From assembly GCA_028280225.1 (NCBI GenBank), contig JANQMF010000021.1:1-64000 (forward strand): a stretch of 64,000 bases of DNA. The letters run 5' to 3'. The DNA comes from Pseudomonadales bacterium. GTDB taxonomy: Bacteria > Pseudomonadota > Gammaproteobacteria > Pseudomonadales > Azotimanducaceae. Below, piece after piece: positions 12,000-64,000 of this stretch. The notes below the pieces were generated by a model. It did not search any database. It was given only the letters and a program-made list of their open reading frames with translations, and was not told where the DNA came from. Position 1 is the first letter of the stretch. Each line of letters opens with the position of its first letter. The position numbers were made by a program, and so were the translations under genes.

Positions 12000-12893
12000 A
12001 TGCAGGCGGCCACCCCGGACCTTTCTCTGAGCTACACGCAGTTTGCCCGCTTGCCTGAGACGGTTGCGGGGCAACAGGATTCCCAGGCGGGTCTGGAAGC
12101 TGCGGCCCGCCAGTTCGAGAGCATTTGTATCGACATGTGGTTAAAAGGTGCCCGGGAAGCCAATCAGGTCTTTGCCGAAAACAATATCACCAACAGTTCT
12201 GAAATGTTGATGCAACAGGAAATGCTGGACCACGAAATGGCAGTACATATGTCGCAAAACGGCGGCATTGGTCTGGCACCGGTTATTGTACGGCAATTGG
12301 GGGGTGACCCCAGTCTGATGTCAGGCGCTGCACAACCGCCATCCCCGGCTCAGGGTGCTTGGGCCTCCTCAACGGTCAGCGCTGTAACCGGTAACCCGGC
12401 CAGGCCCGGGGCCAACGCGCGTATCAGTGCTTTTGACAACCCCGGAGACTTTGTTAAGCGGATCAAACCGCTGATTGATAGCGCCCTGAAAAATCTACCG
12501 ATTCCTGGCTTGGCCGTGCTTGGCCAGGCGGCGCTGGAAACCGGTTGGGGCGCCCATGTGATTGCGGATTCAACGGGAAACCTGTCTCATAACCTGTTTG
12601 GCATAAAGGCCAAGGCCGCTGAGCCCAGCGTTGCCGTGGTCTCAAAAGAATTTGAACACGGCCGCTGGCTGCACCGCGAAGACAATTTCCGGACGTATCC
12701 GGATTGGCGCGCCGGTATATCCGACTATGTTGACAAAATAACCCAGTCACCGCGTTACCGGGGTATCGCCACGTCCGTGGACGATATCCAGGGTTATTTG
12801 CAGGGTTTACAGGAAGCCGGTTATGCCACGGATCCGGGATATGCTGACAAAATTATGCGGGTGGTGGCATCCATCAAGGAGTTAAGTCCCTAA
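12000..12893 (+). CDS. flgJ: FlgJ, rod-cap protein with peptidoglycan hydrolase domain
   Basis: A 297-residue two-domain protein. Residues about 25-110 are the rod-capping domain (AARQFESICIDMWLKGARE, EMLMQQEMLDHEMAVHMSQ). Residues about 145-295 are a glucosaminidase-type domain with the catalytic Glu in GQAALETGWG (about residue 180) and HNLFGIKA. It scaffolds rod assembly and opens the peptidoglycan layer. Its ATG directly follows the flgI stop, and its stop overlaps the flgK start by one base. Confidence 0.95.
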   Translation: MQAATPDLSLSYTQFARLPETVAGQQDSQAGLEAAARQFESICIDMWLKGAREANQVFAENNITNSSEMLMQQEMLDHEMAVHMSQNGGIGLAPVIVRQLGGDPSLMSGAAQPPSPAQGAWASSTVSAVTGNPARPGANARISAFDNPGDFVKRIKPLIDSALKNLPIPGLAVLGQAALETGWGAHVIADSTGNLSHNLFGIKAKAAEPSVAVVSKEFEHGRWLHREDNFRTYPDWRAGISDYVDKITQSPRYRGIATSVDDIQGYLQGLQEAGYATDPGYADKIMRVVASIKELSP

Positions 12894-41008: not shown

Positions 41009-43078
41009 GTGTTTACGCAATTCAAATTGAGCAGCCTCGGTATTCCACTATTGCTGCTGTTGTTATTGGCGCTGATGACCGTTCGCGTTCCGCCAATGTT
41101 GTTGGACGTATCCTTCACCTTCAACATCACCCTGGCCCTGGTGGTTTTGCTGGTCAGTGTCTATGTCATGAAGCCGCTAGACTTCGCGGCTTTTCCCTCA
41201 ATACTGCTGGTTGCCACGTTGCTCCGTCTGGCTTTGAATGTTGCCTCAACCCGGGTGGTCCTGCTTGACGGGCACAGCGGTGGGGCGGCAGCCGGTCAGG
41301 TGATCGAATCTTTTGGCGCGGTGCTTGTGGGCGGCAACTACGTGGTTGGCCTGGTGGTATTTATCATTCTGGTCATTATCAATTTTGTGGTGGTCACCAA
41401 GGGTGCCGGGAGAATTTCCGAGGTGAGCGCACGGTTTACATTGGATGCCATGCCCGGCAAGCAGATGGCCATTGACGCGGACCTGAATGCGGGCATTCTC
41501 GACCAGGAACAGGCCAAGGCCCGGCGCGAAGAAGTTGCCCAGGAAGCGGACTTTTACGGATCCATGGATGGTGCCAGCAAATTTGTACGCGGCGATGCGG
41601 TGGCCGGTATCCTTATTTTGATTATCAACATTGTCGGCGGCCTGACCATTGGGATGTCCCAACACAATCTGGACTTTAATCAGGCCCTGGAAAATTACAC
41701 CCTGTTGACCATTGGTGATGGTCTGGTTGCGCAAATCCCTTCGCTGTTGTTGTCCACGGCTGCGGCAATTATTGTCACCCGGGTCAACAGCGCCCAGGAC
41801 ATGGGTGAGCAGGTCATGCAGCAGATGTTTGGGGAACCCAAGGCTCTGGCCATCGCCTCCGGCATCCTGTTGGCGCTGGGTATGGTTCCGGGGATGCCTC
41901 ATGGCGTTTTTCTGACACTGGGTGTGGCGGCGGCTGGTGCATCCTGGATGCTTAAACAGCGCAACAACGCAGCCCAACCCGATGAAGACGACAATCTGGT
42001 TGAGGAGGTGATTGAGCCGGAGCGGCAGGATGTAAGCTGGGACGATGTGACTCCAGTGGATACCCTGGGTTTGGAAGTTGGTTATAAGTTGATCCCGCTG
42101 GTGGACAAAAACCAATCCGGGGAATTACTTAGCCGCATTCGCGGGGTACGCAAAAAATTATCTCAGGACCTGGGTTTTCTGGTACCAACCATACATATTC
42201 GGGACAATCTGGACCTGTTACCCAATATGTACCGGTTTTCCCTGATGGGGGTTAGCGTAGGTGAGGCGGAAATACACCCGGATAAATTTCTTGCCATTGA
42301 TCCCGGAGAAGTATTTGGCACCTTGAACGGTATTGCCACTCAGGATCCGGCTTTTGGTCTGCCGGCAATCTGGATTGACGAACAAGACAAGGATAATGCG
42401 CAAACCCTGGGTTATACCGTGGTGGATGCCAGTACCGTGGTGGCCACCCACGTGAATCAAATTATGTTGGATAGTGCCGCAGACTTGTTGGGGCACGATG
42501 AGGTGCAGCATCTTGTGGATTTGTTGGCAGGATCCTCACCTAAACTGGCTGAGCAGTTGGTGCCCGGCGCAATCAGCTTGTCGGGTCTGCTTAAGGTTTT
42601 GCAAAGCCTGTTAAAAGAGAAGATTCCAATCAAGGATTTGCGCTCCATTGCAGAATGCCTGGCAGACGGCAGTGCATCCAATCTTTCCATAGAAGACCAA
42701 ACTAATCTGGTCCGCAGTCACCTTGGGCGCATGATTGTGCAGAATATTTACGGCAATGAGGCATCTTTAGAAGTCATCACCTTGGACCCTGAATTAGAAC
42801 AGCTTTTGCTCCAGGCGAAGTCACAGGGTGGTACCGACAGCCCGGTGATCGAACCCAGCATGGCGGAACAACTGCAGACCTCAGTCATTGATATAGCTGA
42901 ACAGAGAGAAATAGCCGGTAAACCTGCGGTGTTGCTGGTATCTGCGGGCATACGCGGCCTGCTGGCCCGGTTTGTGCGCTTGTCCAAGGCTGTGGTGCAT
43001 GTGCTGGCTTATGACGAAATACCGGATAACAAACAAATCACCGTAGTTTCGACCATTGGGCGATCCGCATCTGCGTAG
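41009..43078 (+). CDS. flhA: FlhA, export gate subunit
   Basis: A 689-residue protein starting at GTG. The N-terminal half has eight membrane segments and the FHIPEP signature region (FVVVTKGAGRISEVSARFTL, DAMPGKQMAIDADLNAGILD). The C-terminal half is the cytoplasmic ring that docks chaperone-substrate complexes. It uses proton-motive force to drive export. The stop is followed by flhF. Confidence 0.97.
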   Translation: MFTQFKLSSLGIPLLLLLLLALMTVRVPPMLLDVSFTFNITLALVVLLVSVYVMKPLDFAAFPSILLVATLLRLALNVASTRVVLLDGHSGGAAAGQVIESFGAVLVGGNYVVGLVVFIILVIINFVVVTKGAGRISEVSARFTLDAMPGKQMAIDADLNAGILDQEQAKARREEVAQEADFYGSMDGASKFVRGDAVAGILILIINIVGGLTIGMSQHNLDFNQALENYTLLTIGDGLVAQIPSLLLSTAAAIIVTRVNSAQDMGEQVMQQMFGEPKALAIASGILLALGMVPGMPHGVFLTLGVAAAGASWMLKQRNNAAQPDEDDNLVEEVIEPERQDVSWDDVTPVDTLGLEVGYKLIPLVDKNQSGELLSRIRGVRKKLSQDLGFLVPTIHIRDNLDLLPNMYRFSLMGVSVGEAEIHPDKFLAIDPGEVFGTLNGIATQDPAFGLPAIWIDEQDKDNAQTLGYTVVDASTVVATHVNQIMLDSAADLLGHDEVQHLVDLLAGSSPKLAEQLVPGAISLSGLLKVLQSLLKEKIPIKDLRSIAECLADGSASNLSIEDQTNLVRSHLGRMIVQNIYGNEASLEVITLDPELEQLLLQAKSQGGTDSPVIEPSMAEQLQTSVIDIAEQREIAGKPAVLLVSAGIRGLLARFVRLSKAVVHVLAYDEIPDNKQITVVSTIGRSASA

Positions 43079-49370: not shown

Positions 49371-50573
49371 TCACAGAAAAGTGCTCGCTTTTTCCACACC
49401 CTGGATCAACCGTTCAACGTCGTCCTCATTACTGTACAGGCTGAAAGATGCCCGGATCGTACCCGGAACGCCCAGGGCTGACATCAGGGGCATGGTGCAA
49501 TGATGGCCGGTGCGAACGGCAATACCCTGCTGGTCTAACAGAGTGCCTACATCGTGGGGGTGGGCGCCGTCCAGTAGAAAGGAGATCACCGCCCGGCGTT
49601 GTGCCGGTTCACCCACTAAACGCACTCCGGGAATTTGTTTGAGGCGGCGCAGTGCCTTGTTGATCAACTCATCCTCATACCGCACCAGGCTATCCCGGTC
49701 GATCTGGGATAAATAGGACATCGCTGCACCCAGACCCACCGCACCGGCAATATTGGGCGTACCCGCTTCATATTTGTAAGGTGGCTTTTGATAGGTGCTG
49801 TGGGTGAGGGTGACGTGCTCGATCATTTCGCCGCCCCCTTGCCAGGGCGGCAGGCGCTCCAGGTGTTCCAAACGTCCGTAGAGTACGCCAATCCCGGTAG
49901 GACCATACATCTTATGTGCGGAAAACGCGTAAAAGTCGCATGCTAAATCTTGTACGTCTATGGCTTCGTGCAACGCTGCCTGGGCGCCGTCTATGACGGT
50001 AATGGCGTTGGCCTGTTTGGCCATGGTCATTATGTGGTTAAGAGGATTAACAGTGCCCAGGGCGTTGGAGACATGATTACAGGCCACAATACGGGTGTGT
50101 GGACCCAACTTATTCGCAAAGTCGGACAGGTCGAGGTCGCCGTTGGCCAGCACGTCAACGGCAATTAACTTGGCCCCGGTGCGGGCCGCTAACATTTGCC
50201 AGGGTACAATGTTGGAATGATGCTCCAGGGTGGTGAGCAGAATTTCATCCCCCGGCTGCAGTTCCGCCTGCATGATATTGGCTACCAGATTGATGGCTTC
50301 GGTGGTGCCCCGGGTCATAATGATTTCCGCGGGGGACTCAGCGTTGATAAATTGAGCCGCTTGTTTGCGCGCGTCTTCCAGCAAAGTGGTGGCTTCTTCC
50401 GCCAGAAAATGGGCGGCCCGATGAACGTTGGCATTGTGCCGGGTGTAGTAATCACTGATGGCCTTGATGACCACATCGGGCTTTTGGGTGGTAGCTGCGC
50501 TGTCCAGATAGACCAGAGGTTGGCCCTTGTGCACTCTGGACAAGATAGGGAAGTCTGCACGGATACTGCTCAT
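49371..50573 (-). CDS. sufS: SufS, cysteine desulfurase (class II)
   Basis: A 400-residue PLP enzyme with the Schiff-base Lys in FSAHKMYGPTGIGVLYG, DGAQAALHE and the catalytic Cys in VRTGHHCTMPLM. Short Cys loop marks the SufS group, which needs SufE. It frees sulfur from cysteine as enzyme-bound persulfide. The start overlaps the end of sufD by 4 bp. Confidence 0.96.
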   Translation of the reverse strand: MSSIRADFPILSRVHKGQPLVYLDSAATTQKPDVVIKAISDYYTRHNANVHRAAHFLAEEATTLLEDARKQAAQFINAESPAEIIMTRGTTEAINLVANIMQAELQPGDEILLTTLEHHSNIVPWQMLAARTGAKLIAVDVLANGDLDLSDFANKLGPHTRIVACNHVSNALGTVNPLNHIMTMAKQANAITVIDGAQAALHEAIDVQDLACDFYAFSAHKMYGPTGIGVLYGRLEHLERLPPWQGGGEMIEHVTLTHSTYQKPPYKYEAGTPNIAGAVGLGAAMSYLSQIDRDSLVRYEDELINKALRRLKQIPGVRLVGEPAQRRAVISFLLDGAHPHDVGTLLDQQGIAVRTGHHCTMPLMSALGVPGTIRASFSLYSNEDDVERLIQGVEKASTFL

Positions 50574-51715
50574 GGGCCTACCATCCGTTCACTCAGGTGG
50601 GCGAAGGTTGCCATGGCCGTTTCCGCCAGTGCTCCCTGACTTGCCGTATTGAGGAAGGCTGTGCTTAACAGCTGTTTGGCCAGGTCCGGGTTGATGCCGC
50701 GGCTGGCACAGTAGAACAGGTGGTTTTCGTCGAGTTGACCCACCGTGGCCCCATGACTGCATTGAACATCGTCGGTATAAATTTCCAATTCCGGTTTAGT
50801 GTTAATGTTGGCTTGTTGCGCCACCCCAAGATTCTTGTTGCTCAGGTGGGCTTGCACCCCCGGGCAATGTGCGTGGATATGAATGCGTCCGTTAAAGGTG
50901 ACATTGGCGGCCTGCCCGGCGATATTGTGCACCGTTTGCCGGCTGGTGGAATGAGGGGCGGTGTGTTGTACGGTGATCTGCTGATCAAGGTGCGCCTTTT
51001 CAGGGACCAGGCTGGCTGACAGGAGTTGAGCGTGGGCACCGGGTCCGGCGCAATTAATGTGAATATTCTGACGGTGGGTGGCGGCACCAACACTGTGATT
51101 CTGCAACGTATAAACCGCATCCCGGGCCAGATGCACTTGCAGATGACGGAACAGGATTTGCCCATCCTGTTCCTGATCCCAGCCCAGATTATTGCGCGCG
51201 TGGATGACACGGCTGGAGGCTTCCTGCTGCAACCACAGACAATGTTGGTGGGATTTGCTCAGGGTGTCAGCCTGCTGTTCCAGAATCTTTAGATCCACGT
51301 TTTCGGCAACACGAATAAATACCGGCAGGCTTTGCCCGGTATGTTCGAGTACAAGGCAGGCGTCCGGTGTTTTGGTAACGTATATGTAGTCGATGGCTCC
51401 GGCTTGCAAAAGCAGGTTAACCACTTCCGGTGCATCTTCAATCAGGCTGCCAAAGTCGGTGCTGCTGAGGAAATTCTGGGTTGCATCCGTCAGTCGTTGT
51501 ACCTGTATACCACCGGGGATGTCCACCAGGCAGGAGGATTGATTGCTGGCATCCTGGCGGCTGAGCCCGGCCAGGAGTTTATCAACCTTGGTGTACTTCC
51601 AGCGCTCTTTATGCGCCTGGCTTTGCTGTGCCCGGGCCAGGGCTGTTTGCAGTTCATCATAGCTTTTACCGCTCAACCAGGCTGGGGTGTTGACGGGTGC
51701 TTCTAGGTCAGCCAC
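50570..51715 (-). CDS. sufD: SufD, scaffold subunit
   Basis: A 381-residue SufB/SufD-family protein with the C-terminal signature DDVQCSHGATVGQLDENHLF. It partners SufB and SufC in the scaffold where clusters are built. It overlaps sufC by 13 bp and sufS by 4 bp. Confidence 0.94.
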   Translation of the reverse strand: MADLEAPVNTPAWLSGKSYDELQTALARAQQSQAHKERWKYTKVDKLLAGLSRQDASNQSSCLVDIPGGIQVQRLTDATQNFLSSTDFGSLIEDAPEVVNLLLQAGAIDYIYVTKTPDACLVLEHTGQSLPVFIRVAENVDLKILEQQADTLSKSHQHCLWLQQEASSRVIHARNNLGWDQEQDGQILFRHLQVHLARDAVYTLQNHSVGAATHRQNIHINCAGPGAHAQLLSASLVPEKAHLDQQITVQHTAPHSTSRQTVHNIAGQAANVTFNGRIHIHAHCPGVQAHLSNKNLGVAQQANINTKPELEIYTDDVQCSHGATVGQLDENHLFYCASRGINPDLAKQLLSTAFLNTASQGALAETAMATFAHLSERMVGP

Positions 51716-52446
51716 GCGTAACCCTTTTCTTCCAGTTCCAGCGCCAGGGTTTTGTCGCCGGATTGGACAATTTTACCATCCGCCAGAACATGGACAAAAT
51801 CCGGCTGAATATGATCTAACAAGCGCTGATAGTGGGTTACAAGAATAACCGCATTGTCCTGACTACGAAATTTGTTAACCCCATTGGCGACCACCTGCAG
51901 GGCGTCGATGTCAAGGCCGGAATCTGTTTCGTCCAGCACCGCCAGCGTAGGTTCCAATAGCAACATTTGCAGAATTTCGTTGCGCTTTTTTTCTCCGCCG
52001 CTGAAACCTTCGTTAACGCCGCGTTTTAAAAATTCCGGGTTCAAGTCTAACGACTTGGCCAATTCCCGTGCCTGTTTGATGATACCGGCGGCGTTCGGCT
52101 GGTTGCCGCCTTTGGCGTGAGCGTGAGATTCCAGGGCTGCTTTCAAAAATTCCATATTGCTTACACCGGGGATTTCCACGGGATATTGAAAGGCCAGGAA
52201 TATGCCTGCTACGGCACGTTCGTGAGCTTCCTGATCCGCAATATCCATGTCCTGGAAGGTGACGCTGCCCGACGTCACTTGATACCCTGGACGTCCGGCC
52301 AACACGTTTGCCAGGGTAGACTTACCGGACCCGTTGGGCCCCATGATGGCGTGCACCTCACCGGCATTCACTTGCAGAGACAAACCTTTGAGGATGGGTT
52401 GTCCGGCCACCTCAGCGTGCAGGTTGCTGATATTGAGGATACTCAT
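51703..52446 (-). CDS. sufC: SufC, scaffold ATPase
   Basis: A 247-residue ABC-type ATPase with Walker [17 protein letters not shown], signature [20 protein letters not shown] and Walker [17 protein letters not shown]. It drives conformational change in SufBCD and has no membrane partner. It overlaps sufB by 4 bp. Confidence 0.97.
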
Positions 52447-53909
52447 CCCACGGCACCTTCTAAACTGACCTCAAGCAGCTTGCCCGCTTCGACGGCAAAT
52501 TCCATGGGCAACTCGCGAAAAACTTCTTTGCAAAAGCCGTTAACAATCATGCTCACTGCTTTTTCCGGATCGATGCCCCGTTGTTGGCAGGCAAAAAGCT
52601 GGTCGTCACTGACCTTGGAGGTGGTGGCCTCATGTTCAACAACGGCATTGGGTTGCTTGTTTTCGATATATGGGAAGGTGTGTGCGCCGCAGGTGTCCCC
52701 AATTAACAGGGAATCGCATTGGGTGAAGTTGCGCGCATGGTTTGCCGTAGGAGAAAATCGGACTAAACCCCGGTAGGTGTTCTGGCTGCGTCCGGTGCTG
52801 ATGCCCTTGGAGATGATGGTGCTTTTGGTGTTGTTGCCCAGGTGAATCATCTTGGTGCCGGTATCCGCCTGCTGCACGTTGTTGGTTAATGCCACCGAAT
52901 AAAATTCCCCAACCGAGTGATCTCCCCTGAGGATGACGCTGGGATATTTCCAGGTTATGGCAGAACCCGTTTCCACCTGGGTCCAGGAGATTTTTGCCCG
53001 GGGCCCGCCACACAGACCGCGCTTGGTGACAAAGTTATAGATGCCCCCCTTACCGTTTTCGTCTCCCGGATACCAGTTTTGCACCGTTGAATATTTGATT
53101 TCCGCATCACCCAGGGCAACCAGCTCAACAACCGCCGCATGGAGTTGATTTTCGTCACGCATGGGTGCGGTACATCCTTCCAGATAGCTGACGTGGCTAC
53201 CCTCGTCAGCCACAATCAGCGTGCGCTCAAACTGGCCGGTGTTGCGTTCGTTGATGCGGAAGTAGGTGGACAGTTCCATGGGACAGCGCACCCCCTTGGG
53301 AATGTAGACAAAGGAGCCGTCGCTGAACACGGCGGAGTTCAGTGCTGCATAAAAGTTGTCGCGTTGGGGCACCACCGATCCAAGATACTTCCGCACCAGT
53401 TCGGGATGGCTGTGGACCGCTTCGGAAATGGGGCAGAAAATCACCCCGGCCTCCGCCAGCTTGTCACGGAAGGTTGTTGCAATGGAAACACTGTCGAAAA
53501 CCGCATCAACGGCAACATTGGGATTACTTTTCACAACTCCGGCCAGGGCTTCCTGTTCGTGCAGTGGAATACCCAGTTTCTCGTAGGTCCTTAGCAGTTC
53601 CGGGTCTACCTCTTCCAGAGACTGCGGCCCATCCGCCTGGCTTTTAGGGGCGGAGTAGTAAGATATTTTGTCGAACTCCACCGGTGGAAAATGAACGTGT
53701 GCCCACACGGGTTCCGGCATCTCCCGCCACAAGGCATAGGCTTGCAGACGCCAGTCGGTAAGCCACTGGGGTTCGTTCTTCTTGGCTGAAATAAACCGCA
53801 CAACATCCGGATCAAGACCGGGAGGCAGTGTCTCAGATTCTATTTGGGTGACAAATCCGGCTTGATATTCAGCATTTGCACCGACCAATTCGTCAACAGA
53901 TTGGCTCAC
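52443..53909 (-). CDS. sufB: SufB, Fe-S scaffold subunit
   Basis: A 488-residue SufB with [60 protein letters not shown] and [20 protein letters not shown]. It holds the nascent cluster. The start is GTG with AGGGA upstream. The promoter and IscR-type box lie about 165-210 bp upstream, leaving a leader of about 160 nt. It is the first gene of sufBCDSATE. Confidence 0.96.
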
Positions 53910-54197: not shown

Positions 54198-54824
54198 ATG
54201 CCCAAGCTGCAAAGGATGCCGGAACCCAATGTTGAGTATGCTTACGGCATATATTTGCTGACGAGCAAACACCGGCTGATCAAGACCATGCGCAAGCGTT
54301 ACCAACCGTCAATTCATGGCCACAAGGCCTGGGGTGCGGGTTTCCTGCTGATGGACTATATCAGTCACAATGGCCTGGCCAGGGGCCGCCAGGGCATGGA
54401 GATTGGCTGTGGCTGGGGCGGCGTTTCAGTTTATTGTGCAAAACAATTTCGCACGAAGATGACCGCGGTGGACCTGGATCCGGCGGTGTTTCCTTACGTG
54501 GGTGTGCTGGCTGAGTTAAATGACGTAAAGGTTAAACCGAAACAGGCTGATTTCAGCAAACTTAAAGGGGCTGAATTGGGTAAACACCAATATATTCTGG
54601 GCAGCGATATCTGCTTTTGGGATTCCCTGGTTAAACCGCTGGCCCGCCTGGTCAACCGCGCTTTGGACAATGGCACCAAGCGGGTCATTATTTCCGATCC
54701 GGGGCGGCCCACCTTTTATGAGCTTTGCGATATGGTGTCCAAAAAGCACAAAACCAGGCTCCAAGAGTGGTATGCCAGTGAACCGGATCGTTATGAAGGG
54801 GAGATATTAGAAGTTAAAGCCTAA
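54198..54824 (+). CDS. Class I SAM-dependent methyltransferase
   Basis: A 208-residue methyltransferase with motif I MEIGCGWGGVSVYCA (about residue 72), the acidic end of strand 2 (AVDLDPAVFPYVG), motif IV ILGSDICFWDSL and IISDPGRPTFYEL, a pattern seen in the Methyltransf_16 (METTL21/lysine methyltransferase-like) group. The substrate is unknown and could be a protein. AGGAGA lies 11 nt before the ATG. It stands alone, divergent from suf and convergent with the lipoprotein gene at 54838. Confidence 0.8.
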   Translation: MPKLQRMPEPNVEYAYGIYLLTSKHRLIKTMRKRYQPSIHGHKAWGAGFLLMDYISHNGLARGRQGMEIGCGWGGVSVYCAKQFRTKMTAVDLDPAVFPYVGVLAELNDVKVKPKQADFSKLKGAELGKHQYILGSDICFWDSLVKPLARLVNRALDNGTKRVIISDPGRPTFYELCDMVSKKHKTRLQEWYASEPDRYEGEILEVKA

Positions 54825-54837
54825 TATTAACAATATG

Positions 54838-55500
54838 TTATGCATCATTCTGAACAAATTGCTTTAATTGATCCGCCAGGCTGGAACACGCTGAATTCTG
54901 CACCCGGGCAATGATTGGAATGGGCACCACAATGGCCGGCATATAGCTGGTACCCGCTGCGTCGGAACTGACCCGGCCTGCGGTTCTGGCGGTGTGCGCA
55001 TCCCATACGGACGCTTCGTAAGACGAGTCCTTTTCCCAGGTGAGAAAGCCAAAACACCCGCCACCGCCCGGTGAGATGCTGCATGACATGGAGCCGGCCT
55101 GGGCGGTTTGCTGGGTGGAACCCTCCAACCAGATTAAGTACTTCAAACCAATTTCCCGCAGCCGCTGTGCCAATATGGGCTGTTGCAGGAGTTCGGGCAG
55201 TTCATTGGTATTCAAAGGCGCGGTGCGCGGTTCAAACCAGGGAAACATGGCATCCACGAACTCCTGTTCCGAGATTACCTGCACACCGTTGCCTCCGCCG
55301 GCAACTTTCCTGGATACACAATCGATAAAATCGAGTTCCGCCTCCGCTTGGCTGGGCCGATTGCGCCGTCCAAGGACCACAATGGAGTCGCCTTCTCCCA
55401 TGCTTGTGGCGGTTTCGCGTATCTGTTCCACGGTGGCGGTGACACAACCGCTCAGCGCAGTGACGGCGAGGATACCGCTTATCGTTGGCCAAATTTTCAT
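54838..55500 (-). CDS. Predicted lipoprotein, last gene of the VWA/ExbB-like operon
   Basis: A 220-residue protein with a lipoprotein signal (SGILAVTALSGC; lipobox LSGC). The body begins with a strand followed by ADE-type helices (MGEGDSIVVLGRRNRPSQAE) and has FVDAMFPWFEPR and LREIGLKYLIWLEGSTQQ, a pattern that recalls CsgG-like or other envelope lipoproteins, though I cannot assign a family. Six mature cysteines are notable for a periplasmic protein (CVSRK, MSCSIS, GGCFGF, SACSSL among them) and may form disulfides. Its ATG overlaps the upstream lipoprotein stop by 4 bp. Confidence 0.7.
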   Translation of the reverse strand: MKIWPTISGILAVTALSGCVTATVEQIRETATSMGEGDSIVVLGRRNRPSQAEAELDFIDCVSRKVAGGGNGVQVISEQEFVDAMFPWFEPRTAPLNTNELPELLQQPILAQRLREIGLKYLIWLEGSTQQTAQAGSMSCSISPGGGGCFGFLTWEKDSSYEASVWDAHTARTAGRVSSDAAGTSYMPAIVVPIPIIARVQNSACSSLADQLKQFVQNDA

Positions 55501-56303
55501 GTTGCACCTGTGGCTGCATCAGCAGCAATATTCTCGTTATTCAACACATTTGTTGGATCTGGTGACGTGTCACCACCGCTGTCCTCACCCACCGTGGACG
55601 GTGCAGCGGGGTCTGGCGTGGCGGGTGTTGCAGCCGCAGGGGCAGCAGCAGGGGCCGCGGCGGCAGCAGTCTGAGCCGCCGGGGCGGCAGGTTGCGGCGG
55701 CACCAGCGGTTTGCCGGCGGCGAGCCACTGGCTGACCATGGTTTCACGGGTGAAATTAATGCTGAAGAAAGCCATGGCATCCCGGCAGGCAGCCAAGGCA
55801 GCTTCTTCCAGGCCGGTGGATTTGGAGCCATGGTCTTTCTGGCTGGCCTTTCCATAAGCGGGCAGAGTCCAGTTACCAATGAGGTTACCTTCGCGGTCGA
55901 ACAGTTGAAATTGATAGCGGATCCAGATTTCGTAGTAATCGGACCGGGTTTGACTGGGTAATGAAAACTGTAACTCGGCAATGTTTGGCTTTAACACCCC
56001 ATCCAGATGGGGTGCTCTATTTTCACTAACAAATTCGTAGCCTTCGAATACACCCATGGCCAGATTGTTAAACAGGTCCTTTTGCGCGGGGCCAACGGCC
56101 ACCTCAAAATCGCCTTTCTTTTCGATGGTTTCTTTGTGTATGTAGCTGGTGAGGGTATCGTCCAGGTGAATACCCAGACGCACCGGGGCTTTTTGCATAA
56201 CCGGAACCGGAAAACGGCTGGTTTCAATTTCTAAATGGGCGGTACCGGCACAGCCGCCAAGCAGAACAAGCGATACCAGCACAGGGGCGGTGACACGGAC
56301 CAT
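55497..56303 (-). CDS. Predicted lipoprotein with Ala/Pro-rich C-terminal tail
   Basis: A 268-residue protein with lipobox LLGGC after APVLVSLVLL. Residues about 25-200 look like a folded domain (VRLGIHLDDTLTSYIHKETI, GVFEGYEFVSENRAPHLDGV, LEEAALAACRDAMAFFSINF). The last 65 residues are Ala/Pro/Thr-rich, then acidic (GEDSGGD), like a flexible linker reaching through the periplasm or cell wall. It overlaps the VWA gene upstream by one base. Family not recognised. Confidence 0.7.
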   Translation of the reverse strand: MVRVTAPVLVSLVLLGGCAGTAHLEIETSRFPVPVMQKAPVRLGIHLDDTLTSYIHKETIEKKGDFEVAVGPAQKDLFNNLAMGVFEGYEFVSENRAPHLDGVLKPNIAELQFSLPSQTRSDYYEIWIRYQFQLFDREGNLIGNWTLPAYGKASQKDHGSKSTGLEEAALAACRDAMAFFSINFTRETMVSQWLAAGKPLVPPQPAAPAAQTAAAAAPAAAPAAATPATPDPAAPSTVGEDSGGDTSPDPTNVLNNENIAADAATGAT

Positions 56304-57289
56304 TATTGATTCTCCGCCAGGCCAACAAAACTGCCGTCGTTACGATACGCCAACTCGCGCATCAGCGCCGCAAAGCGGTATACACGATTATTCGGGCGGT
56401 CCAGGTAGACGGGAAATCCCACGGCGTGTATGCGGACCCGCCGGCGGCCGGTTTCGTCTGCAAGATTAACTTGATCCACGGCTTCTATGACTTCCTCTAT
56501 TGAGTTGCCTGTATAGTCGTCCCCGAATACATAGATGCTAATACGTTTATCCTCGTCGTAGTAGGTATTTATTGCTTCTGTAATACCCTCTACGGGGCTT
56601 GAGTTGCTGAACGGGCTCCAGCTTTGCAGCGTGGTGATGATGGAATTGCGCAGGGCGGGGGTGTCTTCAATCCACTGGCCCTGGAACCGGCTGAACATAT
56701 AGTCACCCATATCGTTCATGACTTGAATACCCTTAACACGGGGGTAAATAGACAGGGTTTCGCTGACCTTGCGTACCACCTGGGGCCAGGCGATGCTCTG
56801 CATGCTGCCGGAGGTGTCGATGACAAAAATAATGTACTCAGAATCCACCGCGATACCCCCCACCAAACCTGAAGAACGCTTAAAATCCAGCCCCAGCAGG
56901 CGCTGCATCTCGTCGGTCAGGGATTGTTTGGCGGCAGCCAGTTGCAGATTTTGTATGGAAGTTTCCTTCTGGGTTTCGCTCAAGTTGTCGAATTGCCCCA
57001 GAATCCGCGTTAACTGCCGCTGCAATTGGGCAAGCTGCTCCAGTTTGTCTTCCAGGTCGCCCTCAGTGTCGTTCAACTGACGCCGCAACTCGGTAATCTG
57101 GCCACGAATCTCATACAGGGCTTGTTCCCGCTGGGCAACCTGACCCTGTAAGTTAACCTGAGTTTTTTCCAGCAGGATAGGTTGTACGGTTTTGGTGATC
57201 ATCAGCAGCAGGATAATGGCGCCAAAACCACAACAGATGACGTCCAGAAAGGAGACGCTGAATTCTTCAATGCCTCTGCGATTACGCAT
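56303..57289 (-). CDS. Membrane-anchored VWA-domain protein 2 with ExbD/MotB-like N-terminal helix
   Basis: 328 residues from ATG 57289, which overlaps the stop of the upstream VWA gene by one base (TAATG); a start at 57349 within that gene is rejected. Residues 10-32 are a membrane helix beginning EFSVSFLDVICCGFGAIILL, with Asp16 at the position of the proton-carrying Asp in ExbD/TolR. Residues about 40-115 are coiled coil. Residues about 135-325 are a VWA domain with MIDAS motif FVIDTSGSMQS and YVFGDDYTGNS. It is a clear paralogue of the next gene. The orientation places the VWA domain in the periplasm. Confidence 0.8.
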   Translation of the reverse strand: MRNRRGIEEFSVSFLDVICCGFGAIILLLMITKTVQPILLEKTQVNLQGQVAQREQALYEIRGQITELRRQLNDTEGDLEDKLEQLAQLQRQLTRILGQFDNLSETQKETSIQNLQLAAAKQSLTDEMQRLLGLDFKRSSGLVGGIAVDSEYIIFVIDTSGSMQSIAWPQVVRKVSETLSIYPRVKGIQVMNDMGDYMFSRFQGQWIEDTPALRNSIITTLQSWSPFSNSSPVEGITEAINTYYDEDKRISIYVFGDDYTGNSIEEVIEAVDQVNLADETGRRRVRIHAVGFPVYLDRPNNRVYRFAALMRELAYRNDGSFVGLAENQ

Positions 57290-58377
57290 TACGGCCAATC
57301 CCAGGATGGCGAAATGAACGCCCCGCCGGTCACCCTGGCCAGGTTCCAATAGGCCGCTGAAGCCAGGGGATCACCTTCCATGGGAAACATGATGACGTTG
57401 ACGGGGATTTGTTTGGGTAGGCGATCGATGGCATCACTGAACAATTCCAGGCGGCGCCCGCCGGTGACCGTGGCTGCCCGGGGCGGGTTTTCGCCCTGGG
57501 TGGGCAGGCCGTCGGTGATCAGATAAACATTGTCCGGTATGGGTGATAGCTGGCGCACCGCCAACATCAGGTTGACCAGGCTTGAGCCGCCGGTGGGAAA
57601 TTGAGTTTTCAGTTCGCTGACCGCCTGATTGAGCTGCTGGCCGTCGTGCATGGGCAGCCAGTCCATATCCGCCGTGGGGACCAGGGACTGGGTTTGTTCA
57701 GCAAAACCATATAACTGAAACTCTGCATCCAGGGGAAGCTGGGCGGCCAGCCATTCCACGGTGCGCACGGCCCGTTGCCATTTGGGTGCGGCGCGTTTTT
57801 GTTGTTCACTCATGTTGCGCCGGCGCAGCACGTTGACGATGGTATCGTCTAACATACTGGCCGAGGTATCCACGGCAATGACAATGTTGCGCCCACCCAC
57901 CTTCATGCCGGTCAGATATTGCCGATCCCCTTCACCTTGAAACGCACGGACTTGATTGCCATCCTGAGCATCCTTTTGTGCCTGGAGAATTTCCACTTCC
58001 CGGGTGCGGGTTTCTATGTCCGAGGTCAGTGCTTGCAGACTTTCAATTTGCGCGGTGGATGCTTCCTCAAGCTCTTTGAGGCTCAAGACTTTTTCCTCCA
58101 GGGTCTGTTCGGTCGAAGCCAGCTGCTGGTCAGAATTTTCCACCCGCGCATCCACCTGATTCATGACTTCGATCAGCTCAAACAGCTCTTTTTCGCCCTG
58201 TTGGACCTGGTAATCCAGCATGCGGATTTCCGCCAGAAGGTCGGTATTAACCACCTTATGGTCTTCGTTACTGTCGTGGTTGATAATCAGAAAAATGAGC
58301 ACCACGGCGCCAAAGCCACAGGACATCACATCTAAAAAAGAAAGGGAAAAAACACTGATGCGACGACTTCTGGCCAT
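57289..58377 (-). CDS. Membrane-anchored VWA-domain protein 1 with ExbD/MotB-like N-terminal helix
   Basis: A 362-residue protein. Residues 9-33 are a membrane helix (VFSLSFLDVMSCGFGAVVLI) with Asp16, identical in position to that of VWA protein 2. Residues about 40-135 are coiled coil (LEEKVLSLKELEEASTAQIE). Residues about 155-345 are a VWA domain with MIDAS motif VIAVDTSASMLD, Thr in TGGSSLVNLM and Asp in YLITDGLPTQG. It lies 9 bp after the Hsp70-like gene. The combination of an ExbD-like anchor with a VWA output suggests a stator partner for the channel protein at 59556. Confidence 0.8.
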   Translation of the reverse strand: MARSRRISVFSLSFLDVMSCGFGAVVLIFLIINHDSNEDHKVVNTDLLAEIRMLDYQVQQGEKELFELIEVMNQVDARVENSDQQLASTEQTLEEKVLSLKELEEASTAQIESLQALTSDIETRTREVEILQAQKDAQDGNQVRAFQGEGDRQYLTGMKVGGRNIVIAVDTSASMLDDTIVNVLRRRNMSEQQKRAAPKWQRAVRTVEWLAAQLPLDAEFQLYGFAEQTQSLVPTADMDWLPMHDGQQLNQAVSELKTQFPTGGSSLVNLMLAVRQLSPIPDNVYLITDGLPTQGENPPRAATVTGGRRLELFSDAIDRLPKQIPVNVIMFPMEGDPLASAAYWNLARVTGGAFISPSWDWP

Positions 58378-58386
58378 GGTTTACCC

Positions 58387-59556
58387 CTAGTCCACAACAA
58401 TGGCCATGTAGATCTGCCCGCCAATTTTGATCTCGTCACCGGCTTGCAGGTCATTGAGGTTGGTGTCGGCGAATTTTGCGTCGGTTAACGGGTATGCATG
58501 CGCGCCGTTTAACAAATGGGTACACGGTATGCTGGCGGGTGAGGGGGTCTGGGCCGGCGGGGTGGCGGTGGCGGAAACGGCACAGGATTGAATGCGCGAG
58601 ACCTGCCCCGGTGTGAGCCGGGACGTCAGCCGCGCATAGCTGGTGGTTGCGCCGGAGGTATCCAGGCGCATCACGGATACATCTTGTTGGCTGATCAGGT
58701 CCGCCAACCCCGGAATATGTTGACTGCGATTGGTGAGTGCAACAATGTCCCCGCTGTTAAGCTCCAGAGCAGACAGCCGCTGTCGTAATTTGTTGTGCAG
58801 ATCTTTGTGGCTGACCTCAATCTGGCGTTCGGTACCGCCGTGTTCAATTTGCACCCGGGGCTGAATCTCGTTGTGGGTGCACCAGGCATAAACCTGGTTG
58901 AGCATCTGTTGTTCACACTCACCGCTGTGGGTGGGATCAAAACGGGTTTTGTGGACAAATTCGTCAGCAATCACATTCATCCAGCCGTCTATGATGCTGA
59001 GCAGACCAAGGCCGTCAAAGGTGCGGGTGGGCAGGCAGGATAGCGTCTGGTCATCGTGCACAATCTGGGTCAGGCTGAGGCGGTGCTGCTCGATATCCAA
59101 CACGTGAAAGTTCCGGCCGTGGAGCAGCTCAAGGGTTTCGGAACGGCTCAAGTCGGCCAGTGCATGCGCCAGGGCAATGTCGACAAATCCGGCCACCGCA
59201 AGACCGGCCTCCTGACAGATGCCCATCAGCAAACCCAGTTGTTCGTTAGTCAAATACCCGGGTACACCCAGGGCGACAGGGTCTGTTGTGTTCACGTCAG
59301 CAGCCAGGCTGCGCAGGTGATGGTAAATAAGATCAGCGTGATTTTTTGCCGGACCCAAGTCACCGCTGAGTGGTTCTGCGCTTAAATTTGCCAGATAACG
59401 GTTGTTAAAGTTCTGTGGTCTGCGCCGCGCGGATTGCCAGGCCCGGTAACCAAATACCAGTTCATTGTTTTCGAACAAGGCGGCGGCGATTTCGGAAAAA
59501 CTGATGCCGTGAGCTTCGTAGACGTTGAGCTGCCAGTCATTGTATTCGACTAACAC
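58387..59556 (-). CDS. Degenerate Hsp70/actin-fold protein
   Basis: A 389-residue protein with Hsp70-like landmarks: NNELVFGYRAW, ALGVPGYLTNEQLGLLMGIC, GLAVAGFVDIALAHALADL, and SGDIVALTNRSQHIPGLADL. The nucleotide-binding glycine motifs are missing: phosphate loop 2 reads LDIEQHRLSL in place of DxGGGT, and the adenosine loop lacks the GG pair. It is therefore probably a structural or regulatory pseudo-ATPase. The last 45 residues form a beta-rich unit ending DEIKIGGQIYMAIVVD, separated by an Ala/Pro/Thr linker. Its start overlaps the channel gene stop by one base. Confidence 0.65.
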   Translation of the reverse strand: MLVEYNDWQLNVYEAHGISFSEIAAALFENNELVFGYRAWQSARRRPQNFNNRYLANLSAEPLSGDLGPAKNHADLIYHHLRSLAADVNTTDPVALGVPGYLTNEQLGLLMGICQEAGLAVAGFVDIALAHALADLSRSETLELLHGRNFHVLDIEQHRLSLTQIVHDDQTLSCLPTRTFDGLGLLSIIDGWMNVIADEFVHKTRFDPTHSGECEQQMLNQVYAWCTHNEIQPRVQIEHGGTERQIEVSHKDLHNKLRQRLSALELNSGDIVALTNRSQHIPGLADLISQQDVSVMRLDTSGATTSYARLTSRLTPGQVSRIQSCAVSATATPPAQTPSPASIPCTHLLNGAHAYPLTDAKFADTNLNDLQAGDEIKIGGQIYMAIVVD

Positions 59557-60359
59557 TACGTGCTCCTCACCTGCAGATGCCGCAATAACCGGGTATCACA
59601 GTAGGTTTGCGTGTCCAGCACCAGCCGCTCCTGGATAAGCTGTAGCTGGTGCATAAGAAACATCAGCACAATGCTGATGACCAGCGCAATAAAGGTTGAG
59701 TTAAAAGCCACCCCCAAACTGGTGGTCACGCCGGCAATGTCGCCCTCAACCGCTCGATAAGCCTGGCCCAGGGCTTCGCCAATTCCCCGCACGGTGCCGA
59801 TAAAACCAATGGACGGGATGGCCCATGCGATATAGCGCACCATGGACAGCTCGCTGTCCAGCCGGTCAGATTCCGCATCACAAACGGATTTAACCGCTTC
59901 GGAGACATCCTGAACATTCCGGGTGGACGAAAATCGATGCAGGGCGGCAAGCAGGGTGCGGGGCAGGAGTGCCTCACGCTGTTCTTCCGGCAGAGCCTGT
60001 ATGGGCCGGGCGTGTTCCCGGGTATCTTCCGGCAGAATACTCATCCCTTCCGAAATCTGCATAAACTCTTCAGCCAGCAATCTGCGTTCACCCAGGGCGG
60101 TGCGCATTTTTAAACCCATAATCGCAATGGCCCAGAACATCAGGATAAAACAAGCTTCCTGTTCGTAGTCGCGCAGCACCACATACAGGGAACGGTCCTG
60201 CACAAAGGGTTCGCCGGAGGCCGCTAACTCTGCCTGTTGTTGCAGAATGACATCTGCGTTTGGCCGGATTAATGTCACGTAAACCAGGTGGACCAATATG
60301 ATGGCGATGATCAACGCCCCAATCTGGTAAACCAGCTCAAACTGAAGATGTTTTTTCAT
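59556..60359 (-). CDS. MotA/TolQ/ExbB-family ion channel subunit
   Basis: A 267-residue membrane protein with helices at about 12-31, 68-86, and two in the C-terminal half. The C-terminal part carries the ExbB/TolQ signature: PSIGFIGTVRGIGEALGQAY, then VTTSLGVAFNSTFIALVISI, with the conserved Thr in each helix. A cytoplasmic domain lies between helices 2 and 3. ExbB/TolQ/MotA pentamers conduct ions and turn around a two-subunit core. No ExbD, TolR or MotB gene is adjacent, but the two VWA proteins downstream carry a matching helix. Flagellar stators are encoded separately at 45880-47501. Confidence 0.85.
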   Translation of the reverse strand: MKKHLQFELVYQIGALIIAIILVHLVYVTLIRPNADVILQQQAELAASGEPFVQDRSLYVVLRDYEQEACFILMFWAIAIMGLKMRTALGERRLLAEEFMQISEGMSILPEDTREHARPIQALPEEQREALLPRTLLAALHRFSSTRNVQDVSEAVKSVCDAESDRLDSELSMVRYIAWAIPSIGFIGTVRGIGEALGQAYRAVEGDIAGVTTSLGVAFNSTFIALVISIVLMFLMHQLQLIQERLVLDTQTYCDTRLLRHLQVRST

Positions 60360-60423
60360 AACTTATTCGATCTATTGTTCTTCGGTTGATGTCTTGCCCG
60401 CAGCCCGGTATCCATTTGCCGCC

Positions 60424-60744
60424 TTATATATCCACTGGGAATGAGACCGCAAAGTCTTCAGAAATTTCCTCACTCGGGATAAAAATATCGCCTTTCTTTT
60501 TATCCCGGATGACCTTAACCGGCGCGGGGTCATTTGTCGGCTGGTCTGTGTTGGAGTTTTCTTGCGGGGCTTTATTGTCCGCCTCCGCCGGAGCAGCATC
60601 CGCGGACAATACCCCGGTTCCCTGGGTGGCGGCTGCCGGCTGGCTCAGCGCGGTGCAGACAAGCAGCAGCAGGCACCCCAATACGCATCTGGTAACGATA
60701 GTCCGGGCTGTCCGGGGGGGGCAGACGGGGAAAATCGGGTGCAT
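60424..60744 (-). CDS. Small secreted protein of unknown function
   Basis: A 106-residue protein with an N-terminal signal (CVLGCLLLLVCTALSQPAAA; cleavage expected after Ala) and a short mature part of about 65 residues. The mature region is acidic and Pro/Asn-rich, then ends in a distinctive basic-to-acidic stretch KKKGDIFIPSEEISEDFAVS near the C-terminus. It lies 6 bp after the PEGA/SUMF1 gene, so it is part of the operon. No family recognised. Confidence 0.6.
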   Translation of the reverse strand: MHPIFPVCPPRTARTIVTRCVLGCLLLLVCTALSQPAAATQGTGVLSADAAPAEADNKAPQENSNTDQPTNDPAPVKVIRDKKKGDIFIPSEEISEDFAVSFPVDI

Positions 60745-60750
60745 GGTCAG

Positions 60751-62868
60751 TTACTCCGCATTTCTGGCGAGTCGAAAGCCTACATCTGTTCGGGGATCAA
60801 TACCGTAGTCCCGGAAAGAATACCGCAGTTCGGTGATGGTGCCATGCATCCAACTGGAATCACGTATCACCCGATACTCACCTTCACTGGGGCCGGTGGG
60901 GTTTTTTACAGGGTCTGCGCTGGGAATCTCATAGTAGTCGTTGGTCCACTCGGCAACGTTTCCACCCATGTCATACAAGCCCCGGGTATTAGCCTTATAG
61001 GTACCCACCGGCGCGGCTACCGAATAGTTATCGTTATAACCAAAAATAACCCGGCCAACCAGCGTGGAGGCGGCCCGGTCAGCAAAATTGGCAAACCGGT
61101 CCGGGGGTGGCAAGTGCTGCCCCCAGGGAAATCTCAGTTGGGGCATTGACGTTTCGCCCTGGCCCTTTGCTGCCGGTGTGTCTCCCTGTGTGCGGGCGGC
61201 CCAGGCCCATTCCGCTTCGGTGGGCAGGCGGTATCCCTTGGCGCCGGGATTGGTGCCCACAACCTTGCCAAATTCAATATTGTAAAACCGGGGCAGCTTG
61301 GCCGCTTCCGAAAGCCAGTTACAGTAGGCTGCCGCGTCGTGCCAACTGATGTTGACCACGGGCATATCGTCGTCGTTCAGGGAATTTTCCACAAATTTCA
61401 GCGAGTCGTGGCCACTGGCAAATTGCCTGAACTGGGCATTGGTCACCTCGTGGGTGCCCAGGTAAAACAACCGGTCCATGGACACTTCACGCAGGGTTTC
61501 GTTGGCGCGGCGTCCGGGTTCGCGGCGGGATGCACCCATGGTGAAATCAAAGGGCTGAAACAGTCTGAGCACTTGTCCACCAGGGCTGGTAATGGTTGGA
61601 GTCAGCGCCTTGAGCCGGGCTTGCGCAACGGTCAGCAGGCGCACCTTAACCTCCTGGGTGAGGCCTGCCTTAGGGGTGATGGATTGTTTGTAGCCGGCGT
61701 AGCCGTCCAAGCTGATTTCAATACTGTGGGCTTCGATGGGCAGCGAAACCGTTTGATTGGCGCTGCCGAGGAGGCGGCCGTTGACCTTAAGTTGTGCATC
61801 AGCGGGTTGGGTTACAAATACGACCTCACCAAGCTGGCGGGACAGATTGGCGTGAAGCTTTTTGACCTCACCCCGGGCCATGGTGCTGCGCTGGGAATAG
61901 GTGGTGTAGCCGTTGCGTATCACCGCAATCTGATGGTTTTGACCGGACTTTAAATCCAGGCTGATCGGGGTGCGCCCCATAAACTGGCCGTTGACCGTAA
62001 CACCGGCGGCGGTGGGGGTGCTGGATATATGTAATTGAGCGTCCGCTTGCACCAGGGCGATTTTGTCCAGTGGCTGTTCGACACCCGCCTGGGCGAAGAT
62101 ACGCTGGGTATGGGTTTTGTAGCCATCCAGCTTAACTTGAATTTCCCGTTCTCCGGCCAGGGCTTCGACGATTGCCGGTGTCTGTCCTGCCGGGGTATCG
62201 TCGATAAAAATGTCTGCCCCCGGCGGAGTGCTGGCGACAGCCACCTCCGCCCAGTTGGGGTCCAGGGTAACTTCCGCGGTCTGGGTAATCTGCTTGCCCT
62301 CAATGTCCACCTGGATAGACCGCGGCAGATACCTTGGGTGACTGACGGTTAGATTATGTTGACCCGCCGGAAGTTGTATGGGTCCGGACTGCGGGGCGAC
62401 GCTTGCCGCTGTTTCTGCTTCTGATAGAGACGGGTCGGCCGGATGCGAATCAACCAGATGAATTACAGCATCCCCGGGATTGACCTTAAGTTCCAAAAAC
62501 CCCGGCAGCGGTGTAAAGACAAACCGCTGGCTTTGGTTACGTGCGCTGCCAACGCTAAATTCCGCCTCCAGGGGCTCATGCAGATCCGCCGTTGCGCGAA
62601 TGGTGTAAGTGCCTTCCCGCAGCAGATAAACACCACCCAGTTCGAACGAAAAGCCGCCATCCACGGCCATGCTGTCCGCCTTGGGGGAGAAGTTGATTTG
62701 CACGCTTTTTGAGGTGAATAGAAACCAGAAGACAAACAGGACCAAAAGGATCGCAACACCGCCAAGATAGTGTCCAAGGGTAAATTTACGCCGGCGTACC
62801 TCACCGTCGCTGGGGGTAAATTTGACCGGCTCAATGGGGTTGTTTTGCTGGTTCACATCCGGAGTCAT
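60751..62868 (-). CDS. Membrane-anchored PEGA-repeat protein with C-terminal SUMF1/FGE-like domain
   Basis: A 705-residue protein. A cytoplasmic tail is followed by one membrane helix (about 32-51, LGGVAILLVLFVFWFLF). The periplasmic part has at least three PEGA-type units (about 208-265, 275-330, 340-395; for example ADIFIDDTPAGQTPAIVEAL and VKLDGYKTH). Residues about 440-705 are a formylglycine-generating-enzyme-like domain (THEVTNAQFRQFASG, GYRLPTEAEWAWAARTQG, YDMGGNVAEWTNDYY, ending VGFRLARNAE). The usual RGGSW is RDSSWMHG and no catalytic Cys pair is visible, so it is likely a binding domain, not an enzyme. PEGA repeats are linked to envelope surface proteins. Confidence 0.85.
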   Translation of the reverse strand: MTPDVNQQNNPIEPVKFTPSDGEVRRRKFTLGHYLGGVAILLVLFVFWFLFTSKSVQINFSPKADSMAVDGGFSFELGGVYLLREGTYTIRATADLHEPLEAEFSVGSARNQSQRFVFTPLPGFLELKVNPGDAVIHLVDSHPADPSLSEAETAASVAPQSGPIQLPAGQHNLTVSHPRYLPRSIQVDIEGKQITQTAEVTLDPNWAEVAVASTPPGADIFIDDTPAGQTPAIVEALAGEREIQVKLDGYKTHTQRIFAQAGVEQPLDKIALVQADAQLHISSTPTAAGVTVNGQFMGRTPISLDLKSGQNHQIAVIRNGYTTYSQRSTMARGEVKKLHANLSRQLGEVVFVTQPADAQLKVNGRLLGSANQTVSLPIEAHSIEISLDGYAGYKQSITPKAGLTQEVKVRLLTVAQARLKALTPTITSPGGQVLRLFQPFDFTMGASRREPGRRANETLREVSMDRLFYLGTHEVTNAQFRQFASGHDSLKFVENSLNDDDMPVVNISWHDAAAYCNWLSEAAKLPRFYNIEFGKVVGTNPGAKGYRLPTEAEWAWAARTQGDTPAAKGQGETSMPQLRFPWGQHLPPPDRFANFADRAASTLVGRVIFGYNDNYSVAAPVGTYKANTRGLYDMGGNVAEWTNDYYEIPSADPVKNPTGPSEGEYRVIRDSSWMHGTITELRYSFRDYGIDPRTDVGFRLARNAE

Positions 62869-62889
62869 GGTGTATTGCCAAGCAGCCCG

Positions 62890-64000
62890 TTACAAACTTT
62901 CCGGGCAGGACAAGTCCACGGGTCTGATGCCGGGTAGTACTTCGATGGAAAGATAAATATCGCGGCAGCCGTCCTGGCTGCCGCGAATGGTATATTGCCC
63001 GGGTCTTAGGCTCAGGGTTTTGCGTTCAAAACGGCCCAGTTGGCCAACGTTGGACATGATAATTTCGGTGGCATTATCGGATACCAGAACAACGTCAACC
63101 GGATCACGGTACAGCACAATAAGGTTGTCCACGGTGGCTATGACGGCACGCATTTTAGGCCCCCGGTGTTCTAAAGTTCTGGCGTTTTCCAGGATGTCAA
63201 CGGCCTCTAAATAGAGTTGTTGTCTAGACAATTTTTGCGGTTCAGAAGCGATTTTGTTGAGCAGTGTGCTGGAACGCAGGTGTGCCTTGGCGCTGCTTAG
63301 GCCGTTACTTGCAAACTGAATATTGTTGTCCATCTTCAGTACAGCCTCATAAGCCTCAATGGCCTGTTGCCATTCCTCGGCGGCAAGGGCCCGCTCCGCA
63401 ACCTGCTGATGCTGTTTGATAACCGCCAGATCGTTTTCCTTGGCCAGTTGTGCCAGTCCACCCTTGGCGATGTCGTTGTCGGGTTCCAGCAGCAGGGCTG
63501 CGTTAAACGCTTTACGGGCGGCGTCAAAACGCCGCTGATTCAGATGTGCAAACCCCCGGCTTAAATGTTGGGCCACCTGATTTTTCGATTCTGCACGGGC
63601 TGCGTTTTGGCGCAGGGCAGCCAGTCCCCGGGTGGCGGGGTCAAGTTGTTCTATTTGTTGGTATACCGCAAGAGCCTGCTGCGGACGTTCACCCAGCTCG
63701 TGGTTTTTTGCGGTTCTGAGCAGGCTGACAATCTGCGGCAGTACCGATACGCGCTGCTTAAGTGCCAAGGCCTGGGTATCGTTAGCCTTAATGGCCAGGG
63801 CGCGTTCTATTTCCGTGGTTGCCCCGGGTATGTTCAGTTCATCAATATACCGGGTCGTTTGCGCCAGGTGCTGGTCAAAGAGTTGATTGCCGGCATCAAT
63901 GAGATCACTTAAGTGTTGTGTGGCGGATTGGTACAGATTCAGTGCAGCTTCGTATTGCTCCTCGGCAAACTCGCTGTCACCCTCCTGGGCCAGCGCCATG
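62890..64000 (-). CDS. TPR-rich protein with C-terminal PEGA-like domain, 5' end cut by window
   Basis: The visible 369 residues continue past the right edge; the Met at 63999 is probably internal. Residues 1-250 are helical repeats of TPR type (EEQYEAALNLYQSATQHLSD, RRFDAARKAFNAALLLEPDN, AEEWQQAIEAYEAVLKMDNN). The last 90 residues form a beta-rich domain (DPVDVVLVSDNATEIIM, LSLRPGQYTIRGSQDGCRDI) that resembles a PEGA unit. It lies 21 bp upstream of the PEGA/SUMF1 gene and shares a theme with it. It may scaffold the membrane complex. Confidence 0.75.
   Translation of the reverse strand, partial: MALAQEGDSEFAEEQYEAALNLYQSATQHLSDLIDAGNQLFDQHLAQTTRYIDELNIPGATTEIERALAIKANDTQALALKQRVSVLPQIVSLLRTAKNHELGERPQQALAVYQQIEQLDPATRGLAALRQNAARAESKNQVAQHLSRGFAHLNQRRFDAARKAFNAALLLEPDNDIAKGGLAQLAKENDLAVIKQHQQVAERALAAEEWQQAIEAYEAVLKMDNNIQFASNGLSSAKAHLRSSTLLNKIASEPQKLSRQQLYLEAVDILENARTLEHRGPKMRAVIATVDNLIVLYRDPVDVVLVSDNATEIIMSNVGQLGRFERKTLSLRPGQYTIRGSQDGCRDIYLSIEVLPGIRPVDLSCPESL

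Follow-up and report, generated by a model that had tools for sequence, protein, structure and literature searches.

What process could bring together, in a single bacterial operon, a motor-type ion channel, two VWA proteins, a protein with an Hsp70 fold, PEGA- and SUMF1-like domains and a set of lipoproteins? The question is raised by one end of a 64,000-nucleotide stretch of DNA (the window), where an earlier note had read a nine-gene operon. All nine minus-strand frames at 54838–64000 were recovered, as were the gaps reported between them (-4, -1, -1, 9, -1, 64, 6 and 21 bp), and the start codon of VWA2 is the ATG at 57289 (Table 1). Neither the completeness nor the gene count of that reading stood: the TPR frame is still open past 63999 and runs to the end of the contig (64110), which leaves eight complete genes and one partial gene in the window, and relatives carry more genes than nine.

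Table 1. Genes of the operon in the window, in the direction of transcription
Gene	Position	Strand	Features
TPR gene, partial	62890..64000	minus	~500 aa in relatives
PEGA-SUMF1 protein, 705 aa	60751..62868	minus	TM 35-53, PEGA repeats, C-terminal SUMF1-like domain
Small secreted protein, 106 aa	60424..60744	minus	signal-like N-terminus, conserved C-terminal motif
MotA/TolQ/ExbB-type channel, 267 aa	59556..60359	minus	PF01618
Hsp70-fold cytosolic protein with C-terminal FHA-type domain	58387..59556	minus	altered phosphate loops; FHA degenerate in this copy
VWA1	57289..58377	minus	basic N-terminus, ExbD-like TM with Asp16, coiled-coil stalk, VWA with DxSxS
VWA2	56303..57289	minus	layout as VWA1: TM Asp16, coiled-coil stalk, VWA with DTSGSM
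LipoA, predicted outer-membrane lipoprotein, no known family	55497..56303	minus	lipobox in most homologues
LipoB, predicted outer-membrane lipoprotein, conserved cysteines, no known family	54838..55500	minus	lipobox in most homologues

Gene order and distribution

This is a real, deeply conserved envelope operon. HMM searches covering 43 whole-genome loci and 80 named loci gave an operon of 12 genes, ordered U1-U2-U3-TPR-PEGA/SUMF1-Small-Channel-Hsp-VWA1-VWA2-LipoA-LipoB, with an M48 lipoprotein gene often coming next as the thirteenth; U1, U2 and U3 continue the block upstream in 17 loci fetched from relatives. Median intergenic gaps lie between -4 and 21 nt in all neighbouring pairs (44–121 loci), and these tight gaps, together with a VWA2 gene in 31 of 58 relatives, bear out the earlier reading of an operon beyond chance. 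Operons lacking Hsp, U1 or the last lipoproteins keep a smaller core, made up of U2, U3, TPR, PEGA-SUMF1, Channel, VWA1 and VWA2; since the small protein, Hsp, U1, LipoA and LipoB are each absent from some operons, they are not essential to this core. A promoter scan of the operon found no excess of promoters, and a terminator scan found weak terminator-like sites scattered within coding sequence.

The conserved neighbourhood that the earlier note proposed to look for in gammaproteobacteria extends across many families of that class, another class of Pseudomonadota and further phyla. The operon occurs in 30 of the 369 genomes sampled from the class and in 16 of 398 sampled from the phylum, with one family from another class among the latter. 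Carriers include many bacteria of marine or sediment origin, and the named loci cover Halieaceae, Microbulbifer, Pseudoalteromonas denitrificans, Colwellia, Desulfobacterota, one Myxococcales and one Kiritimatiellia MAG. The order is conserved in MAGs of Desulfobacterota, Myxococcota and Kiritimatiellota, single records being weak evidence because bins can be mixed; in a Myxococcales MAG (L199) the operon is arranged in two oppositely oriented halves. A tree built from channel, VWA1 and VWA2 puts Thermodesulfobacteriota in two places among Pseudomonadota, which fits either transfer or old paralogy. Pairwise protein distances correlate at 0.73–0.93 when operon members are compared among themselves, with no control gene.

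On the downstream side, the minus-strand genes at 49371–53909 read as a SUF iron-sulfur cluster operon, a neighbour of the operon at many loci in the genus, and a plus-strand methyltransferase-domain gene (54198–54824) lies between the two and is kept there in much of the genus. Elsewhere in the window, flagellar genes at 5735–8554, 12893–15553 and 41009–43078 encode a 939-aa hook protein, an 886-aa FlgK and FlhA (FHIPEP); the hook protein and FlgK look long for their families.

The channel and its VWA partners

The channel matches its Pfam family at 6.5e-15 and is of the TolQ/ExbB type, with Thr189 and Thr222 invariant in homologues. Its sequence probably contains four TM segments, three placed from hydropathy and the fourth from a conserved GFIGTVRG motif; a PDB profile search with the channel returned nothing useful. 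An anti-phage defence of the Zorya kind would employ a channel from the same superfamily, and there is a weak match to ZorA2 (E 0.015), but such a role is highly improbable and the Zorya identity is disfavoured: apart from the ZorA match neither ZorB nor effector genes were found (no match to ZorB, ZorC, ZorD or ZorE), searches of 50,697 phage and 72,556 plasmid records gave no match, and the operon keeps a stable position beside the SUF genes in much of the genus.

The reading of two VWA proteins stands on the DxSxS metal motif, which is present in 117 of 122 VWA1 homologues and in 123/123 VWA2 homologues, but not on Pfam thresholds, as both window proteins score below the cut-offs for the domain (24.3 bits against 27 for VWA1, 15.9 against 23.8 for VWA2). 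The pair has an N-terminal TM motif in common (hhalign 99%), and wherever this motif could be placed a TM Asp occupies the ExbD position (109/109 VWA1 and 122/122 VWA2 homologues). Similarity of the segment to that of ExbD is visible by eye; in profile-profile comparison it is not significant (hhalign probability 3–4%), with the Asp in register in the VWA2 alignment and both VWA sets outscoring five control TM segments. No ExbD gene lies inside any operon, the only two matches at operon loci being more than 4 kb outside, and none of the six canonical ExbD/TolR genes of the host genome falls within it. At four loci (L117, L118, L119 and L121) the listed VWA1 starts cut into the TM motif, and the true starts probably lie upstream at another start codon.

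The idea of a channel with a paired “TPH-vWA” motor is not new: Williams-Jones et al. (2025; PMC12204202) predicted pairs of vWA proteins that join a TolQ-like pentamer in the absence of tolR/exbD, proposed rotation in the pore, and independently published an AF3 prediction of the channel and TM-VWA motor core. As presented in the accessible part of that article, the motor combines a TolQ-like gene with two different TM-vWA genes, has a conserved TM Asp, lacks tolR/exbD in its cluster and occurs in Proteobacteria and Verrucomicrobia; the operon has the same gene trio, the same Asp and the same lack of ExbD, and shares these phyla. Because every tested feature matches, the core of the operon very likely belongs to the TPH-vWA family, the comparison with this family, whose seed is from Idiomarina, being one of described features. 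The motor core is therefore already predicted, whereas the full machine and its partners are not described in the accessible text, which deals with the core only and mentions neither PEGA, formylglycine nor Hsp70, nor any of the PEGA-SUMF1 or Hsp70-like partners. A literature search on the combined parts returned this article as the only directly relevant one and found no published function or experiment on any member. The claim that no known user of this channel family has the set must be qualified accordingly, as the core was predicted in 2025 and the Agl-Glt core (see below) follows a similar plan.

Scaffold, cytosolic and lipoprotein components

In relatives, the TPR protein consists of a cytosolic N-terminus, one TM segment, periplasmic TPRs and a C-terminal PEGA-like end. 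For the neighbouring PEGA-SUMF1 protein, an active formylglycine-generating enzyme (FGE) is disfavoured: the catalytic Cys is absent after the RVIRG.SW motif in 17/17 homologues with a placeable motif, the regular expression having placed this anchor in only 17 of 104. In the T9SS/gliding GldK-L-M-N system, a proton motor acts on an outer ring or track protein that is SUMF1-like. The PEGA-SUMF1 protein matches the GldK equivalog model at 94.1 bits and does not reach its cut-off of 350, GldL, GldM and GldN were not detected among the window proteins, and GldK is a lipoprotein whereas the operon protein is anchored in the inner membrane. The small secreted protein has a disordered middle and a conserved C-terminal motif, ISEDxxVxFPVDI.

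“Pseudo-Hsp70” proved an apt name for the cytosolic protein, whose AlphaFold2 model (pLDDT 93.5) matches Hsp70/DnaK in Foldseek (1.4e-14, TM about 0.6). The phosphate-loop motifs of Hsp70 are DLGTT and DLGGGT; by eye, NDW and LDIEQHR stand in their place, and with the loops thus altered ATP-driven gating is doubtful. What the first reading missed is a C-terminal FHA domain, above cut-off and clear in deltaproteobacterial members and degenerate in the window copy. A long cytosolic N-terminus on the PEGA protein accompanies 10 of 21 operons without the Hsp gene versus 6 of 78 with it (Fisher p 9e-5, rows not independent), and this extension is FHA-like by eye and, in one case, weakly by Pfam; L100, L157, L163, L172, L107 and L203 have extensions of this appearance, mostly where the Hsp-like gene is absent. 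One could envision an ion-gated sensor or chaperone and no motor at all, with signals passing from the channel to the Hsp70-FHA protein and with VWA heads that bind metal or cargo. The Hsp70 and FHA folds are of a regulatory kind and the MIDAS-like metal motif is kept, but many operons lack the Hsp-like gene while retaining the channel-VWA pair, and the residues that one would look for in an ion-driven stator are invariant, which makes this reading distinctly unlikely.

LipoA and LipoB were correctly called lipoproteins, as most homologues of each have a lipobox; the same is true of U3, and no Asp occurs among the +2 residues listed for the three proteins. PDB profile searches with U3, LipoA and LipoB returned nothing useful. 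Of the other upstream products, U1 is a TPR protein with a signal-like N-terminus and a TonB_C domain (in 18 of 22 U1 proteins), and U2 is a lipoprotein whose linker is long and disordered and whose C-terminal helix is conserved. The model of U3 has a TolB/LptE-like domain and a long helical hairpin.

These components invite comparison with Tol-Pal and Ton, with which the operon shares an ExbB/TolQ-family channel, TonB_C (in U1) and a TolB-like domain (in U3). It might encode a system that works alongside Tol-Pal to stabilise or constrict the outer membrane, in which U3 would be a lipoprotein of TolB-like character and the M48 protease would serve quality control. The resemblance of the U3 N-domain to TolB D1 and LptE, the several lipoproteins, the frequent placement of the M48 peptidase at the downstream end and the stable neighbourhood in much of the genus all agree with this. 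Yet Pal, TolA and TolR are all absent from the operon, the match of U3 is short and weak (E about 1e-3) and the distribution in the class is patchy (30/369 genomes), and we regard the proposal as unlikely. Ton differs in having a TM-anchored TonB with ExbB and ExbD, whereas the operon has no ExbD and its U1 is seemingly secreted, with no TonB-like TM anchor.

A putative ion-driven machine and its nearest relatives

Among known machines, the Agl-Glt core of Myxococcus comes closest in its list of parts; this core is also present in gammaproteobacteria without an assigned function (PMC3169522), and the earlier note left it out in comparing Tol-Pal, Ton, Mot and Zorya. The shared plan comprises a channel, two subunits in the ExbD position, a cytosolic FHA domain, TonB_C, TPR and small secreted proteins. 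The Agl-Glt subunits are genuine PF02472 ExbD proteins, whereas the operon has TM-VWA proteins in their place; a GltG-type protein combines FHA and TonB_C, which the operon distributes over the Hsp-like protein and U1; and VWA, PEGA, SUMF1 and Hsp70-like proteins, all found in the operon, are missing from the Agl-Glt parts table. The host genome also carries an Agl-Glt-like locus (L239; G000:C36, 2621–8000) encoding a TPR protein, a TPR lipoprotein, a small secreted protein, an ExbB-like, two ExbD-like and a TonB_C-type protein; because both coexist in one genome, the operon is not a stand-in for it. The operon could be an Agl-Glt variant in which VWA heads replace the ExbD periplasmic domains and pass force to moving outer-membrane lipoproteins. 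The matching plan and the Glt-like locus in the same genome speak for this, but the four additional families, the missing ExbD domain and the very coexistence of that locus speak against it, and we consider it rather unlikely, as we do the corresponding role in surface transport, polymer assembly or gliding-like motion.

It is instead probable that the operon encodes a trans-envelope machine driven by a proton (or sodium) gradient, with the VWA pair in the place of ExbD, a reading strengthened by the deep synteny, the invariant VWA TM Asp, the two invariant channel Thr residues and the upstream TonB_C protein. The earlier proposal of an ion-driven machine that has VWA output and connects to the outer membrane by way of lipoproteins is in this respect the best reading of the parts, although the transmission of force is something that we infer. 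The channel would form an inner-membrane pentamer, inside which VWA1 and VWA2 would replace the ExbD/TolR/MotB dimer to give a 5:2 motor, with the TM Asp as putative ion-binding residue. Ion flow would turn or move the VWA pair, and the motion would pass along coiled-coil stalks of ~100 residues to two periplasmic VWA heads. The heads may act on two scaffolds anchored in the inner membrane, TPR-PEGA and PEGA-SUMF1, and, directly or via these scaffolds, on the outer-membrane lipoproteins U2, U3, LipoA and LipoB, with U1 (TPR-TonB_C) and the flexible U2 tail as candidate couplers. The cytosolic Hsp70-fold/FHA protein may gate assembly or activity upon a phosphothreonine signal. Its most likely use would be to organise or move components of the outer membrane or the surface, as in Tol-Pal, Agl-Glt and Gld. 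Of this picture, the gene set with its synteny, the domains, the Hsp70 fold and the conserved residues are observed; the stoichiometry, rotation, contacts, gating and purpose are deduced from them.

More tentatively, and at clearly less than even chances, the operon may represent an envelope machine of a class of its own, widespread in Gram-negatives, in which VWA-headed subunits in the ExbD position drive dedicated scaffolds and outer-membrane lipoproteins in an undescribed process. Up to thirteen genes kept in order over several phyla point to a real cellular process that has so far been missed, and if this is a true motor with VWA output, it would be another route from proton flow to outer-membrane work. 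The operon is a ready parts list for testing, and it extends the 2025 motor prediction, as set out in the accessible part of that article, to a complete, testable machine.
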